From Nitrospirota bacterium (GTDB taxonomy: Bacteria > NPL-UPA2 > JAADIA01), in NCBI GenBank assembly GCA_013151555.1, contig JAADIA010000091.1:1-32367 (forward strand): a DNA stretch of 32,367 bases, written 5' to 3'. This document shows positions 3,701-30,180 of the stretch, piece after piece. The position numbers and the translations under genes are program-made. The notes under the pieces were generated by a model. The model was not told where the DNA came from. It was given only the letters and a program-made list of their open reading frames with translations, and did not search any database. Every line of letters starts with the position of its first letter. Position 1 is the stretch's first letter.

Positions 3701-3720
3701 GGGGGTCTCCTATATTCCCG

Positions 3721-3772
3721 GGGACAGTCCCGATTCTACGAGCTTACGCTCCGTAAATCCGGGACAGTCTCC
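3721..3772. repeat. GGGACAGTCCC palindromic element, copy A
   Basis: A 52-bp element between the 4-epimerase and dehydrogenase genes. It begins with GGGACAGTCCC and ends with a near copy of the same block. Between them, GATTCTACGAGC and GCTCCGTAAATC form an imperfect stem (10 of 12 positions pair) around a short loop. Two further copies lie at 5216-5266 and 7911-7959, always between co-directional genes of this operon. It resembles REP-type elements; no transposase gene is nearby. Confidence 0.85.
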
Positions 3773-3859
3773 TTTGTCTTTCCGAGCCTTCATTTTCTTG
3801 TTTCATGGAACTAATTACACCCTATAAAAGTGGTTGAATCAAGTTGAGCATTGTCTTAT

Positions 3860-5215: not shown

Positions 5216-5266
5216 GGGACAGTCCCGATTCTACGAGCTAACGCTCCGTAAATCTGGGACAGTCCC
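5216..5266. repeat. GGGACAGTCCC palindromic element, copy B
   Basis: The second copy, between the dehydrogenase start (5173) and the phosphatase-family stop (5281). It keeps both GGGACAGTCCC ends and the GATTCTACGAGC/GCTCCGTAAATC stem, and differs from copy A at a few positions. The conservation of the whole unit, not just the stems, argues for dispersal from a common source. Confidence 0.85.
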
Positions 5267-5280
5267 TTTAATCCGTCACC

Positions 5281-7891: not shown

Positions 7892-7910
7892 TGTTTGTGC
7901 TTTCTGCTCA

Positions 7911-7959
7911 GGGACAGTCCCGATTCTACGAGCTGCGTTCCGTAAATCGGGACAGTCCC
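7911..7959. repeat. GGGACAGTCCC palindromic element, copy C
   Basis: The third copy, between cysN start (7891) and cysD stop (8012). The loop differs (GAGCTGCGTTCC instead of GAGCTTACGCTCC) while both GGGACAGTCCC ends are perfect. A short AAAGGGAC-like sequence follows at 7989 but is not a full copy. Confidence 0.83.
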
Positions 7960-8011
7960 TTCAAGGCTCCATAAATTAGGGATTGTTCCCCTTTCGGGGG
8001 ATAGAGAGGCT

Positions 8012-12472: not shown

Positions 12473-13438
12473 TTAGTGCTTACCGGAGAACTCTGCAAGA
12501 GCATCTTTGACAAGGGTCTCGGTAATCTTGTGAGATCCCTGCACGTAACTGGTGAGAAGGGACTGGTCGCAGACCATATTGATGAGACGAGGGATGCCGT
12601 GGGAATAAGCATAAATGGTCTGAAGGGCAGCAGTGGTAAAATGAACCGGTGGAGGTGAAGTGGTCTCTTGCTGCCGGGAAGGAATTATTATTGCCTGTTT
12701 ACATTTTGGGCAATCGGCTTCCCTGTCAGCATGTTTCAGGGATGCGACTAATAATTTCCCACATTTTTTACAGTTAAACTTGACTGAACGGGGGAGAGCC
12801 GGTTTTTTAGCTTTGGTGGCGATTTTGAGGCGGTGGTTGATATAAGCGGTAGTCTCTTCTTCGTTGAGAGGATAGATATGATAGTAGACGTTAATACGCT
12901 GTTTAAGCTGAGCGAGTTTCTGGAGATTGAGTTGGTCGCGAAGTTCGGGCTGGCCGAGGAGGAGAATCTGGATTAGTTTTTCTTTTTCCGTTTCCAGATT
13001 GGAAAGCATTCGGATTTCTTCCAGGACTGAGGGGCGAAGGTTCTGAGCTTCATCAACAATAAGGACGACATTGTAACCTAAGGAAAGTTGACGGATAAGG
13101 AAATTGTTTAGTTCTTTCATCAACTGAACTTTATTTTTGGATTTGGTTTGAATTCCGAAATCTTCTAAAGCGAGTTGAATGAGTTGTTTTCCGGTAAGGT
13201 AAGTGTTGGTGATGATAGCGGTTTTGGTATGGGTATCGAGTTTGTTAAGGAAGGTGCGGCAGATAGTAGTTTTACCGGAACCGATTTCTCCGGTTATAAC
13301 GGCGAAGCCTTTACGTTCGTTAACGGTGTAAATGAGACTGTTGAGTGCTTCCTCATGTTCTTTGGAGGAAAAAAAGTATTTGGAATCGGGGGTAAGGTTA
13401 AAAGGTTTTTCGGTAAAATTGTAAAATTGTTCGTACAT
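12473..13438 (-). CDS. ExeA/GspA-like AAA ATPase with zinc-ribbon insertion
   Basis: A 321-residue AAA+ ATPase of the ExeA/TniB type; members close to it sit in exosortase-associated EPS loci. It opens with MYEQFYNFTEKPFNLTPDSK, the family signature. Walker A GEIGSGKT is at 50-57 and Walker B VVLIVDEAQNL at 124-134; LLGQPELRDQL near 160 is sensor-1 region. In the C-terminal lid (HRLKIA ... FTTAALQTIYAYSHGIPRLIN) about 55 extra residues are inserted, with a zinc ribbon of Cys223, Cys226, Cys243 and Cys246 (FNCKKCGKLL...DCPKCKQAIIIP). The protein may energise or regulate EPS assembly; a partner is unknown. It is divergent from dprA and upstream of the main EPS promoter, so it may have its own transcript. 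Confidence 0.88.
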   Translation of the reverse strand: MYEQFYNFTEKPFNLTPDSKYFFSSKEHEEALNSLIYTVNERKGFAVITGEIGSGKTTICRTFLNKLDTHTKTAIITNTYLTGKQLIQLALEDFGIQTKSKNKVQLMKELNNFLIRQLSLGYNVVLIVDEAQNLRPSVLEEIRMLSNLETEKEKLIQILLLGQPELRDQLNLQKLAQLKQRINVYYHIYPLNEEETTAYINHRLKIATKAKKPALPRSVKFNCKKCGKLLVASLKHADREADCPKCKQAIIIPSRQQETTSPPPVHFTTAALQTIYAYSHGIPRLINMVCDQSLLTSYVQGSHKITETLVKDALAEFSGKH

Positions 13439-13479
13439 TTTAATCTCTATCCCTGTGGGTTAATCAGAACCTTTTTTTT

Positions 13480-13646
13480 GACAGGATTAACAGGATGAAC
13501 GGGATTATTATTTCCCCAATGTTCTTACTTTTCGTTTTACATTGACTTTCTTCTCACCAAAATTTAATAGTAATCCTACCTGTTTTCCAGTGGCCGTTAG
13601 ATAATTTACTCGATATTTTTATCTTGTCTATCCAGTTAATCCTGTC
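13480..13646. repeat. 17-bp inverted repeat enclosing the GxxExxY remnant
   Basis: GACAGGATTAACAGGAT (13480-13496) and its complement ATCCAGTTAATCCTGTC (13630-13646) match at 16 of 17 positions. They bracket a 36-codon coding remnant on the minus strand. The words GACAGGAT/AACAGGAT are themselves iterated, like the other repeat families of the window. Confidence 0.75.
13508..13618 (-). pseudogene. GxxExxY-family protein, C-terminal remnant
   Basis: Read on the minus strand, this segment encodes 36 codons before TAA TAA. The product contains YLTATGKQVGLLLNFGEKKV and ends KRKVRTLGK. This matches the C-terminus of the GxxExxY family (NYLKATG.xxGLLINFG then a basic tail), small proteins of unknown function. 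The expected upstream part (GxGxxExxY and the PD-(D/E)XK-like middle) is absent: an in-frame TAA precedes the segment and repeat DNA follows. No start codon or ribosome site is present, so this is a fossil of a gene, not an active one. The match is from memory of the family. Confidence 0.65.
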
Positions 13647-13795
13647 TGAATTTCTTTAAAGATTCTTTCTCTTAACTATCATCTTAGGAACAGAGTTAAT
13701 ATTATCATAAATATACCTAATAACCGGGGTGCTGTCAATGGCCCGTCAGTTTTTTTCTTTACTTTCTTCTTTTAGCTTGGTATATATTGGGCAAG

Positions 13796-14908
13796 ATGGA
13801 TAAGATAGATAGACTGAAGTTTTGGTTGGCCTTGAATGCTATTCCCGGTCTGGGAGCACGGAGAGCGAAGCTGCTTCTGAAACATTTTGGGAGTCCTCAG
13901 GCTATCCTTGCAGCTCCTTCTTCTAAGTTAAGAGGAATTCCCGGTATCGGTCCGGAACTGACCAAGAGAATAATAAACTGGAAAACATATCTGGATTTGG
14001 ACAAAGAATTTTGTTTGTTGGAAAAGCATCAGGTTAAGGTAATTGTTGTTGATGATAGCTCTTATCCAAAAAACTTAATAAACATTTTTGATCCTCCCTT
14101 AATCCTTTATATAAAAGGAGAGCTCCTTCCCCGGGACTGGATTTCGGTAGCTATTGTGGGCTCCCGGCGTTCTTCTTTTTATGGAAGGAGAACAGCAGAG
14201 AAGTTAGGCCGGGAACTGGCGGCCAGGGGATTGACAGTAGTTAGTGGCCTGGCTCGGGGTGTCGATTCGGCGGCTCACAAAGGAGCGTTATCCGGTGCCG
14301 GACGGACGATAGCTGTTCTGGGAAGCGGTTTGGATGTGGTTTATCCTCCTGAAAATAAGGAACTGATGGAAGAGATTTCCCGAAAAGGAGCAGTCGTCTC
14401 GGAGTTTCCTATGTCCACTTTTCCCGAGAGAGGGAATTTCCCCCGGCGGAATCGAATTATCAGCGGTCTTTCTTTGGGAGTGGTAGTTGTGGAAGCGGCT
14501 CAAAGGAGCGGGGCTTTGATTACTGTTGACTGTGCTCTCGAACAAGGCCGGGAGGTCTTTGCTCTTCCCGGGAAAGTGGATTCTCTGACCAGCCGGGGCA
14601 CTAATATATTGATTCAACAGGGAGCTAAGCTGGTGACTACCAGCGAAGATATCATTGAGGAACTGGAGCCGATATGGGAAAAGTTGTATCCGGAGAAGGA
14701 GATGAGAAACACCGATAACCTGCCTTTGCCTCCTTTGAAAGAAGAAGAGATGAAGGTATATAATCTTTTATCCGATGAGCCTAAACAGGTGGATTCTCTT
14801 ATCGGGGAAAGCGGATTGCTTCCCGGTCATATTTCTTCTGTTCTCTTGATGCTGCAGATGAAGAAGCTTATTAAAGAACTTCCCGGGAAGAAATATATAA
14901 AAGCGTGA
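13796..14908 (+). CDS. dprA: DNA-processing protein DprA (Smf)
   Basis: A 370-residue protein that loads RecA on incoming single-stranded DNA in natural transformation; it is also conserved in non-competent bacteria. Order of domains: N-terminal helix-hairpin-helix/SAM-like region (AIPGLGARRAKLLLKHFG, then GIPGIGPELTKRI), the extended Rossmann DprA core with VAIVGSRRSS, VVSGLARGVDSAAHKGAL, VLGSGLDVVYPPENK, PRRNRIISGLS and SGALITVD, and a C-terminal winged helix (about residues 315-370, DEPKQVDSLIGESGLLPGHI). Length is normal. I take the ATG at 13796; a TTG three codons earlier (13787) is possible, and neither has a strong ribosome site. It is the first of the plus-strand housekeeping run. Confidence 0.95.
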   Translation: MDKIDRLKFWLALNAIPGLGARRAKLLLKHFGSPQAILAAPSSKLRGIPGIGPELTKRIINWKTYLDLDKEFCLLEKHQVKVIVVDDSSYPKNLINIFDPPLILYIKGELLPRDWISVAIVGSRRSSFYGRRTAEKLGRELAARGLTVVSGLARGVDSAAHKGALSGAGRTIAVLGSGLDVVYPPENKELMEEISRKGAVVSEFPMSTFPERGNFPRRNRIISGLSLGVVVVEAAQRSGALITVDCALEQGREVFALPGKVDSLTSRGTNILIQQGAKLVTTSEDIIEELEPIWEKLYPEKEMRNTDNLPLPPLKEEEMKVYNLLSDEPKQVDSLIGESGLLPGHISSVLLMLQMKKLIKELPGKKYIKA

Positions 14909-14910
14909 AA

Positions 14911-15006
14911 AGTTGTAAGTATTAAGTTGTAAGTTGTAAGTATTAAGTTTTTTTTCTTAATTCTTAATGCTTAATACTTAATACTTAATTCTTATAACTT
15001 ACAACT
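14911..15006. repeat. TTAAGTATTAAG iterated-word inverted repeat, copy 1
   Basis: This fills the dprA-topA gap. The left arm iterates AGTTGTAAGTATTAAG; after a T-run the right arm iterates the complementary CTTAATACTTAATAC and ends TAACTTACAACT. The two arms can fold into a long AT-rich hairpin. The same words recur at 17197-17304, on the other side of topA. Confidence 0.85.
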
Positions 15007-18264: not shown

Positions 18265-18270
18265 AAAATA

Positions 18271-18470
18271 GGCACAAAGGCACAGAGGCACAAAGTAGCA
18301 AAGGCACAAAGGAAAAAATAAGAGCCTATATACTTGCAGTTATGTGGAGTGTGGAGCATAAACTATTTGCCCATTTAAGTACTTGTTTTGCTTTTAGTTG
18401 CAGTTAAAGATTTTTTTGTTTTTTTAACTCTGTGCCTTTGTGCCTCTGTGCCTTTGTGTCTCTGTGCCTT
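18271..18470. repeat. GGCACARA iterated-word hairpin element, copy 1
   Basis: It starts 6 nt after the xer stop. The left arm (18271-18310) iterates the period-8 words GGCACAAA/GGCACAGA. The right arm (18427-18470) iterates the complement CTCTGTGCCTTTGTGCC. The loop is longer than in other copies but shares AGGAAAAAATAAG, ATACTTGCAGTT and TTTTTTTAACTCTGTGCC with copies 2 and 3. Confidence 0.88.
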
Positions 18471-20930: not shown

Positions 20931-21938
20931 TTGGCAGCTATTTTCTTGAGGGAGCTTTTAGAAGTAGGGGTCCATTTCGGTCATCAGACTAAACGTTGGA
21001 ATCCAAAAATGGCCCGCTACATATTTGGAGAGAGAAACGGCATTTATATTATTGACCTACTGAAAACAGTAGAAAACTTGAAGAAAGCCAGTAAGTTTTT
21101 AACGGAACTTGTTGGAGGCGGAGGAACGGTTCTCTTTGTGGGGACGAAGAAGCAAGCTCGGGAAACCATTAAACTGGAAGCTACCAGATGTGAGATGTTC
21201 TATGTTAATAATCGCTGGTTAGGAGGAATGCTGACTAATTTCCAGACAATAAAGAAGAGTGTCAGCCGTTTGAAGCAGCTTAAGCGAATGGAGGAAGAAG
21301 GGACTTTTGATATTCTTCCCAAGAAAGAGGTAATTAAACTCAACAAAGAAAAAGAGAAATTGGAAAAGAATCTGGCCGGGGTTGAGGAAATGCATAGTTT
21401 GCCGGCAGCTCTTTTTGTTGTTGATGTTAAAAAGGAGAAGATAGCTGTTTCTGAGGCTAATAAATTAGAGATACCGGTTGTGGCTCTCGTGGATACTAAT
21501 TGTGACCCGGATGAAATAACTTTCTGTATTCCGGGTAATGATGATGCTATCAAGGCAATAAAGGTTCTCTGTTCCCGGATTGCTGATGCTATCTTAAAAG
21601 GGAAAGAAATGGCTAGGGCCGGGGAAAAGAAGGTTGAGGATGAGAAAGAAGAAATGGTAGCTGCTCTTACTGAAAGTCCATCTGTCTCGGGAAAGCAAAG
21701 TGACGAAGGTATGAAACCGGCACAAAGTGATAAAGGCGTAAAAAAGGCACAGAGGCACGCAGGCACAGAGGCACACAGGGATAAAGATACAAAGGGACAA
21801 AGTGATAAGGGCGTAAAAAAGGCACAGAGGCACACAGGCACAGAGGTACAAAGGGATAAAGATACAAAGGCACAAAGTGACGGAGGCGTAAAGGCACAGA
21901 GTGATAAAGGTGCAGAGGCACAGACAAAGAAGGTATAG
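20931..21938 (+). CDS. rpsB: 30S ribosomal protein S2 with repeat-derived C-terminal extension
   Basis: Residues 1 to about 228 are a normal S2: [20 protein letters not shown] at the start, [42 protein letters not shown] and VDTNCDPD. S2 binds the 30S head-body junction near S1. I chose the TTG at 20931: AAAGGAGG precedes it, and it places the protein start where S2 usually starts; an in-frame TTG at 20913 has no ribosome site. The total of 335 residues is about 90-100 more than usual. The extra tail is polar and repetitive ([11 protein letters not shown] ... [11 protein letters not shown]), with an exact 75-bp (25-residue) period. Its DNA is built from the GGCACARA words that form hairpins between genes elsewhere in the window. 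Confidence 0.95.
21719..21927 (+). repeat. GGCACARA-word tandem repeat inside rpsB (75-bp period)
   Basis: CAAAGTGATAAAGGCGTAAA begins at 21723, and near-identical copies begin at 21798 and 21873, exactly 75 bp apart, so the frame is kept. Units contain GGCACAGAGGCACRCAGGCAC, the left-arm word of the intergenic elements. No complementary arm follows. Confidence 0.88.
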
Positions 21939-26157: not shown

Positions 26158-26165
26158 GGAAAGAG

Positions 26166-26297
26166 AAGGCACAGAGGCACAAAGTGACAAAGGCACAAAG
26201 GAAAGATAAAAGCCAATACTTGCAATTTTTTAAGTTTTTCAACTTTTTTAACTTAGTGCTTCTGTGCCTTTGTGCCTTAGTGCCTTTGTTCTTAGTG
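26166..26297. repeat. GGCACARA iterated-word hairpin element, copy 2
   Basis: It starts 9 nt after the cdsA stop. The left arm is AGGCACAGAGGCACAAAG then TGACAAAGGCACAAAGG; the right arm is CTTCTGTGCCTTTGTGCC and TTAGTGCCTTTGTT. The loop GGAAAGATAAAAGCCAATAC and TTGCAATTTTTTAAG closely matches copy 3, so the loop, not only the arms, is conserved. Confidence 0.9.
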
Positions 26298-28986: not shown

Positions 28987-30066
28987 TTGCGGAAACGAAG
29001 GGGGACAAGAAAAGTAAAGTTCGGTCAACTATCTGTCGGAGGAAAAGCTCCTGTCTCCGTCCAGTCCATGACCAAGACCGATACCCGGGATGTAAAAGCT
29101 ACTGTCAGGCAGATCCGGGGATTGGAAAAGGTGGGTTGCCAGGTTATCAGAGTAGCTGTTCCCGATGAGGAAGCCGCACGTTGTCTGGGACGGATTAAGG
29201 AAAGAATTAAGATTCCTCTGATAGCTGATATCCATTTCGATTACCGGTTAGCTCTGATTGCTATTGAGGAAGGGGTGGATGGGTTACGTCTTAATCCCGG
29301 TAATATCAGGGATAAGAGGAAGATAAAAACAATAATTAAAGCAGTTAAGGCAGCCCAAATTCCGGTAAGGATTGGGATTAATTCCGGTTCCCTGGAGAAC
29401 CGTTACCGGTCCCGGATTAAAGATTACGACTTACCGCTGGCGATGGTAAAGAGTGCCGGCGATTACATAAAAATCTTTGAGGATTTAGATTTTTATGACC
29501 TTATCATTTCTCTGAAAGCCTCTGATGTTCCTGCTACTGTGAAGGCCTACCGGCTGATGGCGGAGAGATGTGATTATCCCTTCCATTTAGGAATAACTGC
29601 GGCCGGTCCTTCTTTCCGGGGAGCCATTCGTTCAGCCGTGGGGTTGGGAATTCTTCTCTCAGAAGGTATTGGGGATACTATTCGTGTATCTTTAACCGGA
29701 AACCCGCGGGAAGAAGTGAAAGCGGGATACGAAATATTGAAATCTCTGGGACTGTTTCGGGAAGGTCCTACTCTTATCTCTTGTCCTACCTGTGGCCGCT
29801 GTACAATAGATTTAGTCAAGATTGTCACTCAAGTTGAACGAAAACTCTCAACCTCTAACCTCCAACCTTCAACTTTTAAAATAGCCGTCATGGGCTGTGT
29901 GGTCAATGGTCCCGGCGAAGCCAGAGAGGCAGACATCGGCGTTGCCGGAGGCAAAGGTTTCGGAGTCCTTTTCCGGAAAGGGAAGGTGATAAAAAAGGTG
30001 CCGGAAAGCAAGCTGGTGGAGACAATTTTGGAGGAAATTGAAAGTAAAATTAGAGGCACAAAGTGA
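28987..30066 (+). CDS. ispG: 4-hydroxy-3-methylbut-2-enyl diphosphate synthase (IspG)
   Basis: A 359-residue [4Fe-4S] enzyme of the MEP pathway that reductively opens MEcPP to HMBPP. Features: VKFGQLSVGGKAPVSVQSMT, VGCQVIRVAVPD, PLIADIHFDYRLAL, LRLNPGNI and PVRIGINSGSL in the TIM barrel; cluster Cys266, Cys269 in CPTCGRC and Cys304 in MGCVVNGPGEA. The start is TTG at 28987 behind GGGGGAG; an earlier TTG at 28969 lacks one. The linker KLSTSNLQPSTFK before Cys304 is encoded by iterated AACCTC words with a perfect 8-bp inverted repeat (29831-29838/29868-29875); total spacing is only three residues longer than E. coli. The last codons and stop (RGTK, TGA) come from GGCACARA copy 3. Confidence 0.95.
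   Translation: MRKRRGTRKVKFGQLSVGGKAPVSVQSMTKTDTRDVKATVRQIRGLEKVGCQVIRVAVPDEEAARCLGRIKERIKIPLIADIHFDYRLALIAIEEGVDGLRLNPGNIRDKRKIKTIIKAVKAAQIPVRIGINSGSLENRYRSRIKDYDLPLAMVKSAGDYIKIFEDLDFYDLIISLKASDVPATVKAYRLMAERCDYPFHLGITAAGPSFRGAIRSAVGLGILLSEGIGDTIRVSLTGNPREEVKAGYEILKSLGLFREGPTLISCPTCGRCTIDLVKIVTQVERKLSTSNLQPSTFKIAVMGCVVNGPGEAREADIGVAGGKGFGVLFRKGKVIKKVPESKLVETILEEIESKIRGTK
29831..29875 (+). repeat. AACCTC iterated-word repeat inside ispG
   Basis: AAGTTGAA (29831-29838) and TTCAACTT (29868-29875) are perfect inverted arms. Between them lie CTCAACCTCTAACCTCCAAC, a run of near-identical 7-mers. It is in frame and encodes a linker. Confidence 0.75.
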
Positions 30067-30165
30067 CAGAGGCACAAAGGCACAAAGGAAAAATAGGACC
30101 AATACTTATTGCAGTTTTTTAGGTATTTTAACTCTGTGCCTTAGTGCCTCTGTGCCTGTGTGCCT
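30052..30165. repeat. GGCACARA iterated-word hairpin element, copy 3
   Basis: The left arm AGAGGCACAAAGTGACAGAG then GCACAAAGGCACAAAGG begins inside the ispG coding end; the right arm is CTCTGTGCCTTAGTGCCTC then TGTGCCTGTGTGCC. The loop GGAAAAATAGGACCAATACT and TTGCAGTTTTTTAGG matches copy 2. It ends 15 bp before the recG start. Confidence 0.9.
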
Positions 30166-30180
30166 ATTTGTAGTAGGCAA

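Follow-up and report, generated by a model that had tools for sequence, protein, structure and literature searches.

A GxxExxY gene remnant between inverted tandem arrays as a probable internally deleted copy of an apparently undescribed kind of mobile DNA

The described system on which we draw as an analogue is the REPIN-RAYT (TnpA-REP) pair (PMC3116915, PMC8049555, PMC8266576). In such systems, a gene is bordered by short repeats, many inverted pairs or singlets lacking the gene are dispersed through the genome, and the gene often stays fixed at one locus while the repeats multiply; the elements analyzed here are alike in these respects and also in the lack of a target-site duplication. They differ in that the GxxExxY enzyme is a small protein of predicted PD-(D/E)XK fold and not an HUH/Y1 transposase, in that the repeats are formed by about three tandem 8–10-bp units instead of single REP hairpins, and in that many copies per genome are common, with the gene copies themselves apparently moving. 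As the enzyme class differs, the relation is one of working alike and not of membership. MITEs and the autonomous insertion sequences behind them share with the GxxExxY element the terminal inverted repeats, the internal deletion derivatives and the dispersal between genes, but the latter has neither a DDE nor any other known type of transposase, its ends are tandem arrays, and it shows no regular target-site duplication. A lone small gene between inverted repeats is also found in the 23S rRNA intervening sequences (IVS) with S23/IVP genes, where tandem arrays were present in our sample too; however, the protein fold is unrelated, the units measure 7 bp instead of 8–10 bp, and their sequences are others. 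In that sample, S23/23S_rRNA_IVP genes bounded by inverted tandem arrays with a best period of 7 bp (L153–L164, L173–L175) constitute a parallel class with an unrelated protein. Finally, the families GxxExxY (TIGR04256) and PDDEXK_3 (PF13366) include both the remnant described below and its full-length counterparts by profile score, whereas the family descriptions examined are silent on flanking arrays and mobility.

The window analyzed is a stretch of 32,367 nucleotides from a Nitrospirota bacterium (contig JAADIA010000091.1). The initial annotation had reported in it a gene remnant enclosed by a 17-bp inverted repeat with one mismatch, and this repeat was indeed present: GACAGGATTAACAGGAT lies at 13480–13496 (plus strand), with a second copy at 13630–13646 (minus strand) that differs at one position. 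A scan allowing up to three mismatches gave 3 matches in the window vs 0.08 expected from shuffled sequences. The arms of the inverted repeat (I1) extend to 35 nt (13480–13514 and 13612–13646, 74% complementarity), because each arm consists of about three tandem 9-bp units (ACAGGATTA...). From the sequence, a pattern scan and I1, two terminal arrays were delimited: one at 13480–13505 on the plus strand, 3' of the remnant (three 9-bp units, G-ACAGGATTA-ACAGGATGA-ACGGGAT), and one at 13621–13646 on the minus strand, 5' of it (G-ACAGGATTA-ACTGGATAG-ACAAGAT in minus-strand reading). The remnant itself, at 13511–13618 on the minus strand, has no start codon; its translation between the arms is KYRVNYLTATGKQVGLLLNFGEKKVNVKRKVRTLGK, which corresponds to profile positions ~88–116 according to PF13366, TIGR04256 and an in-house HMM. 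Put to a profile search, the proposed 36-codon match passed, with 23.2 bits for PF13366 (cut-off 22; E 9.5e-5; positions 90–116 of 117), and TIGR04256 gave 28.3 bits (E 1.8e-6), under its whole-protein cut-off of 35 bits as expected for a fragment. By these profiles the remnant is the C-terminal quarter of a GxxExxY (PDDEXK_3) gene, and not an S23 four-helix-bundle gene of the 23S rRNA IVS kind. The nuclease core D...ExK is absent from it, as D62, E72 and K74 are deleted, so it can encode no active protein; the locus itself is an inert relic. Its neighbors on the two sides are a PEP-CTERM-type ATPase gene (12473–13438, minus strand) and dprA (13787–14908, plus strand). The description of the locus as a repeat-bracketed fossil was thus correct, with the refinement that its likeness to other copies runs slightly past the arrays, over 13452–13695; this approximate extent of the whole element, to which no strand was assigned, is based on similarity to copies on contigs C40, C54 and C55 of the same genome. 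The element is MITE-like in having terminal inverted repeats, no complete gene and multiple dispersed copies, and autonomous elements with like ends, from which it could derive, were found outside its own genome (L363, L358).

Other repeats were observed in the same window. Inverted pairs of arrays of a type named -RAG after the end of its units (GGCACAGAGGCACAAAG... / ...CTTTGTGCCTTAGTGCCT) enclose short interiors at 26160–26285 and 30050–30170, and a one-sided array lies at 18270–18305, so that a second array class is also present in this genome. A degenerate tandem array of ~210 bp with units of the GGCACAGAGGCACA(C/A)AG type occupies 21715–21925. Directly after dprA, at 14915–14990, there is an inverted array of ~7-bp units (GTAAGTT.../...TTAATACTTAA), a unit length that also occurs around S23 genes. 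Three intergenic sites (3720–3775, 5216–5269 and 7908–7964) each contain a copy of a hairpin-like repeat that recalls REP-type repeats, GGGACAGTCCCGATTCTACGAGCT...CGTAAATC(C)GGGACAGTCCC.

Throughout the genome of the window (G000; 1.81 Mb, 93.7% complete), ACAGGATTAACAGGAT gave 113 matches with up to two mismatches, vs 1 for the reversed control, and it is nearly absent from relatives of the same order and the same phylum. Neighboring array pairs, examined in fetched stretches of this genome, faced inward in 27 cases, outward in none and in the same direction in one, with interiors of 12–277 bp that mostly contained no recognizable gene. Seven GxxExxY remnants were detected, five of them at such arrays. 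Differently trimmed C-terminal pieces lie on contigs C19 (the window), C40, C54 and C47, and three of the remnants have the same C-terminal piece between arrays, while contig C24 retains both arrays and an N-terminus (LTEKIIGCAYKVYNKLGYGFLE) joined to a C-terminus (EKRVDIKRKVRTL) at a common TTGGAGAG. Self-BLAST aligned the window element at 81–84% with C40 (13452–13610), C54 (13531–13679) and C55 (13581–13695). Judged from their sequences, these copies descend from one ancestral element by internal deletion and were dispersed together with their ends. As no full-length GxxExxY gene was found in the 93.7%-complete assembly, the array family of this genome is probably a relic, or reliant on a gene missing from the assembly. 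At one further site (C16:1–562), a 560-bp near-palindrome surrounds a single array pair, with the inverted repeat reaching far into both flanks.

The layout of intact elements was established around full-length GxxExxY genes by comparing the left with the right flank and counting scores of at least 16. Inverted arrays were present at 58 of 77 named loci, belonging to many phyla and including Methanosarcinales archaea, vs 0 of 259 windows shifted along the sequence, and flanks paired across loci reached such scores in 6.8% of cases; an unbiased search of the family yielded them at 48 of 79 full-length loci vs a null of 2.4%. In this unbiased set (n = 79) the inverted repeat went undetected at about a third of the genes, so that full-length genes without flanking repeats, named in the initial annotation as evidence that would speak against it, do occur, and most genes nevertheless have the repeats. 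An intact element consists of one gene, encoding a protein of 115–120 aa, with an array on each side, the two in inverted orientation and each made up of about three tandem units with a period of 8–10 bp; most elements measure 0.42–0.55 kb from outer end to outer end and lie a few bases from the neighboring genes. According to a simple ORF rule, 32 of 54 genes were sense to both neighbors, whereas 3 of 54 were antisense to both. High scores obtained with joined flanks, considered as possible split genes, came from elements located between co-directional genes and not within genes. The exact ACAGGATTAACAGGAT was practically missing around the full-length genes of the first 60 genomes, an apparent early refutation that was overturned when flank-versus-flank comparison revealed inverted arrays of other sequence. 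In fact, GACAGGATTAACAGGAT is the version of one protein subclade, and most GxxExxY genes have other units (ACCACAGAGGCACAGAG..., CCGCAGATTACGCAGATT...). The expectation that full-length genes would carry the window's own repeat at both ends held for L363, a full-length gene in an unrelated genome with essentially that repeat (GACAGGATTGACATGAT ... ATCATGTTAATCCTGTC) and ACAGGAT-type arrays (gacaggattgacatgat ... atcatgttaatcctgtcaaaaa), and failed for the majority with other units.

An AlphaFold2 model of a full-length member was confident (pLDDT 97), and its best structure matches in the PDB were Cas4-like SSO0001, lambda exonuclease, LHK-Exo, AddAB and I-Bth0305I (E 2e-3 and weaker), which we take to have the PD-(D/E)XK fold in common. 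No solved structure of the GxxExxY family was found in the PDB copy searched. In a diverse set of members D62, K74 and Q86 were invariant and E72 nearly so. The confident model places GxxExxY among the PD-(D/E)XK-fold proteins, nearest to Cas4 and lambda exonuclease, and not among the REP-associated tyrosine transposases of the Y1/HUH type. Its likeness to Cas4 at the sequence level is weak (PADLOC E ~1e-3; Pfam Cas4 below cut-off), and no other named defence family matched. The predicted fold and the D...ExK...Q residues are also those of PD-(D/E)XK homing endonucleases of the I-Bth0305I and I-Ssp6803I type, of Cas4 and of lambda exonuclease, but GxxExxY genes lie outside introns or inteins, and no CRISPR or recombinase partner gene was seen.

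Two array classes were distinguished, with units ending in -RAG (CACAGAG, CGCAAAG) or in -RAT (CGCAGAT, ACAGGAT), and mapped on a tree of 99 proteins (79 -RAG, 20 -RAT), from which 52 more were left out as their arrays were too weak or mixed to label. A single change of class, at a branch with support 99, accounts for the whole tree, vs a mean of 18.5 changes after shuffling and a value as low in 0 of 500 shuffles. Moreover, several genomes (G074, G100, G143, G185, G219) contain both classes, each beside its own protein clade, so the pairing is not a genome-wide compositional effect. Array class is thus tied to protein lineage. In agreement with the arrays of the window, all four remnant pieces of its genome had L363 (from G143) as best match among 151 proteins; L358 (from G158), also full-length and with ACAGGAT-type arrays, was the second-best match of the N-terminal piece and the third-best of the C40 piece. 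Separately, a genome without a GxxExxY or S23 gene (G047, L288–L312) gave 155 matches to ACAGGATTAACAGGAT-like or ACAGGAT-like arrays. These frequently form inverted pairs that enclose ~100 bp and have TGTCTGAACC/GGTTCAGACA at their borders; they were rejected as GxxExxY arrays, as they form a different family (TGTCTGAACCAGGATT...) in a genome lacking the gene.

Comparison of copies bears on the earlier proposal that gene and repeats move as a unit. Two elements of one genome (L364 and L365, G069) are 93% identical from array to array and have unrelated flanks, and the same is true, at ~81%, of L113 vs L121 and L122 in Flavobacteriaceae. The proposal is supported by inverted repeats far above chance across phyla, by copies that end at the repeats and by unrelated flanks, and has to be narrowed in that GACAGGATTAACAGGAT is limited to one subclade. 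As far as sequence comparison can establish, gene and arrays occur as one unit at different sites, and array-only copies are dispersed mainly in gene-bearing genomes. Vertical persistence is also common, since orthologous copies occupy the same locus in L121, L122 and L130 (Flavobacterium) and in L143 and L151; the long residence of the Flavobacterium copies at one locus indicates that movement may be rare. The only candidate for an empty site in a sister genome, G060, has 49 bp vs 668 bp, but the final codons of the gene are still present there, which marks the site as a deletion scar and not an ancestral empty site. Target-site duplications, as made by DDE insertion sequences, were no more frequent than the null in 63 and in 112 elements, and one apparent match (L329) was due to nested arrays. 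The sole strong candidate for such a duplication is L365 (G069:C259), where a perfect 26-bp direct repeat, TTCATATTTTCACCCTGATAAAAAAA, lies on both sides of the element. An unusual concentration was observed in G154 (C1, ~786–828 kb), with at least 8 full-length or partial GxxExxY genes within ~41 kb of a 2.2-Mb genome.

The numbers of array copies follow the presence of the gene. In the genus of G055, both G055 and G065 carry the gene at one locus, and G060 has lost it; matches to the element ends, as relative figures from a capped scoring that counts both arms, were ~95–101 and 80–85 where the gene is present, vs 61–72, 40–42, 8, 2–3 and 2–3 where it is absent. As in REPIN-RAYT systems, the flanking repeat type is dispersed in the gene's own genome (G055 and G065, and with the remnants of G000), and solo arrays without an inverted partner are present in this genus. 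Differences in solo-array presence between G055 and G060 are real, but were discarded as evidence as their borders are blurred by surrounding low-complexity repeats. At one such site (G055 C1:758937, G060 C1:2625305), one of the genomes has a second, small hairpin repeat (GTAGGGGCACGCCCTTGTGGCTGCCC) in place of the central part of a solo array, so that other repeats may insert into arrays. In a broader sample of 290 genomes from 261 genera, 63 had GxxExxY, and a degenerate array pattern was detected in 46 of these vs 17 of the 227 genomes that lacked it (odds ratio 33, p 4e-25, ignoring kinship and genome size), with 1361 of 1470 arrays located in gene-positive genomes. Array-rich genomes without the gene were also found (G016, G222 and G285, with 31, 20 and 19 arrays).

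Taken together, the window locus is probably a MITE-like, non-autonomous derivative of a GxxExxY element, shortened by internal deletion, and the protein of the intact element would mobilize the arrays. Our best inference, by analogy with REPIN/RAYT, is that the PD-(D/E)XK protein would itself move them: it would recognize its own array type, the putative nuclease would make or process DNA ends, and arrays with or without the gene would be copied to new sites. Internal deletion between short direct repeats would then yield array-bounded fragments such as that of the window, which could still be mobilized in trans until the gene is lost. More tentatively, GxxExxY proteins could serve to mobilize a pan-prokaryotic class of minimal elements that has not been described before, each lineage recognizing its own array and spreading the gene together with hundreds of gene-less arrays. 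On this reading, such a REPIN/RAYT-like system with a PD-(D/E)XK nuclease would account for a large part of the short intergenic repeats that lack an explanation in environmental genomes. Chief among the rival readings is a passenger model, in which an HUH/RAYT-type or other transposase, recombination or template switching would move the arrays, and GxxExxY would be cargo or a domesticated repair nuclease located between them by chance. This we consider unlikely, even if it would accommodate the array-rich genomes without the gene, the S23/IVP four-helix-bundle genes, which encode no nuclease and are likewise enclosed by inverted tandem arrays, here with 7-bp units, and the lack of general target-site duplication in the 63 and 112 elements. 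A passenger gene would not require that array class track the GxxExxY clade near-perfectly, even within one genome, nor that array numbers track gene presence, as they do in one genus and across the 290 genomes. The association and co-segregation data thus favor self-mobility by the protein.

An RNA or regulatory role, in which paired arrays form long transcript stems like those of 23S rRNA intervening sequences or operon attenuators and gene and arrays spread by ordinary recombination, appears improbable. RNA folding is favorable for the window element (z −5.2), as it is for any inverted repeat, the genes on either side of elements are co-directional, with 32 of 54 elements sense to both neighbors and 3 antisense to both, and the S23 genes offer a parallel; but hundreds of dispersed gene-less arrays, the partnerless solo arrays of the G055 genus and the tie between array class and a protein of DNA-nuclease type all argue against it. 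Quite improbable, too, is a Cas4- or lambda-exonuclease-like defence nuclease with arrays as self-recognition or regulatory sites: the weak Cas4 likeness in sequence (PADLOC, Pfam) and fold is countered by the absence of a match to any named defence family, by a gene that stands alone among housekeeping genes with no defence island in the few loci read closely, and by the numbers of paralogues, of fragments and of arrays without the gene that single genomes contain, which resemble element dynamics. That a decayed gene simply came to lie between unrelated repeats is hardly credible; the shortness of the remnant is the sole point in its favor, and it is refuted by the inward-facing pairs, by the array association of 5 of the 7 remnants, by the C-terminal piece common to three of them and by full-length counterparts with the same layout.

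The initial annotation had thus picked up a true fragment of a larger pattern, in which a very common orphan protein is tied, lineage by lineage, to its own terminal arrays. In the papers searched, among them few from subscription journals, the family is mentioned twice in passing, and neither its mobility nor the present repeat sequences are described; an earlier description may exist elsewhere. The protein-array pattern is apparently an undescribed and widespread kind of mobile DNA. GxxExxY is a very common "unknown" protein, and short tandem-unit repeats like CACAGAGGCACAGAG and CGCAGATTACGCAGATT are scattered unexplained through many environmental genomes; their lineage-by-lineage tie suggests a testable function for the protein and a possible origin for the repeats. 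Should the nuclease indeed move the arrays, this would be a new enzymatic route for the dispersal of small repeats in bacteria and archaea.
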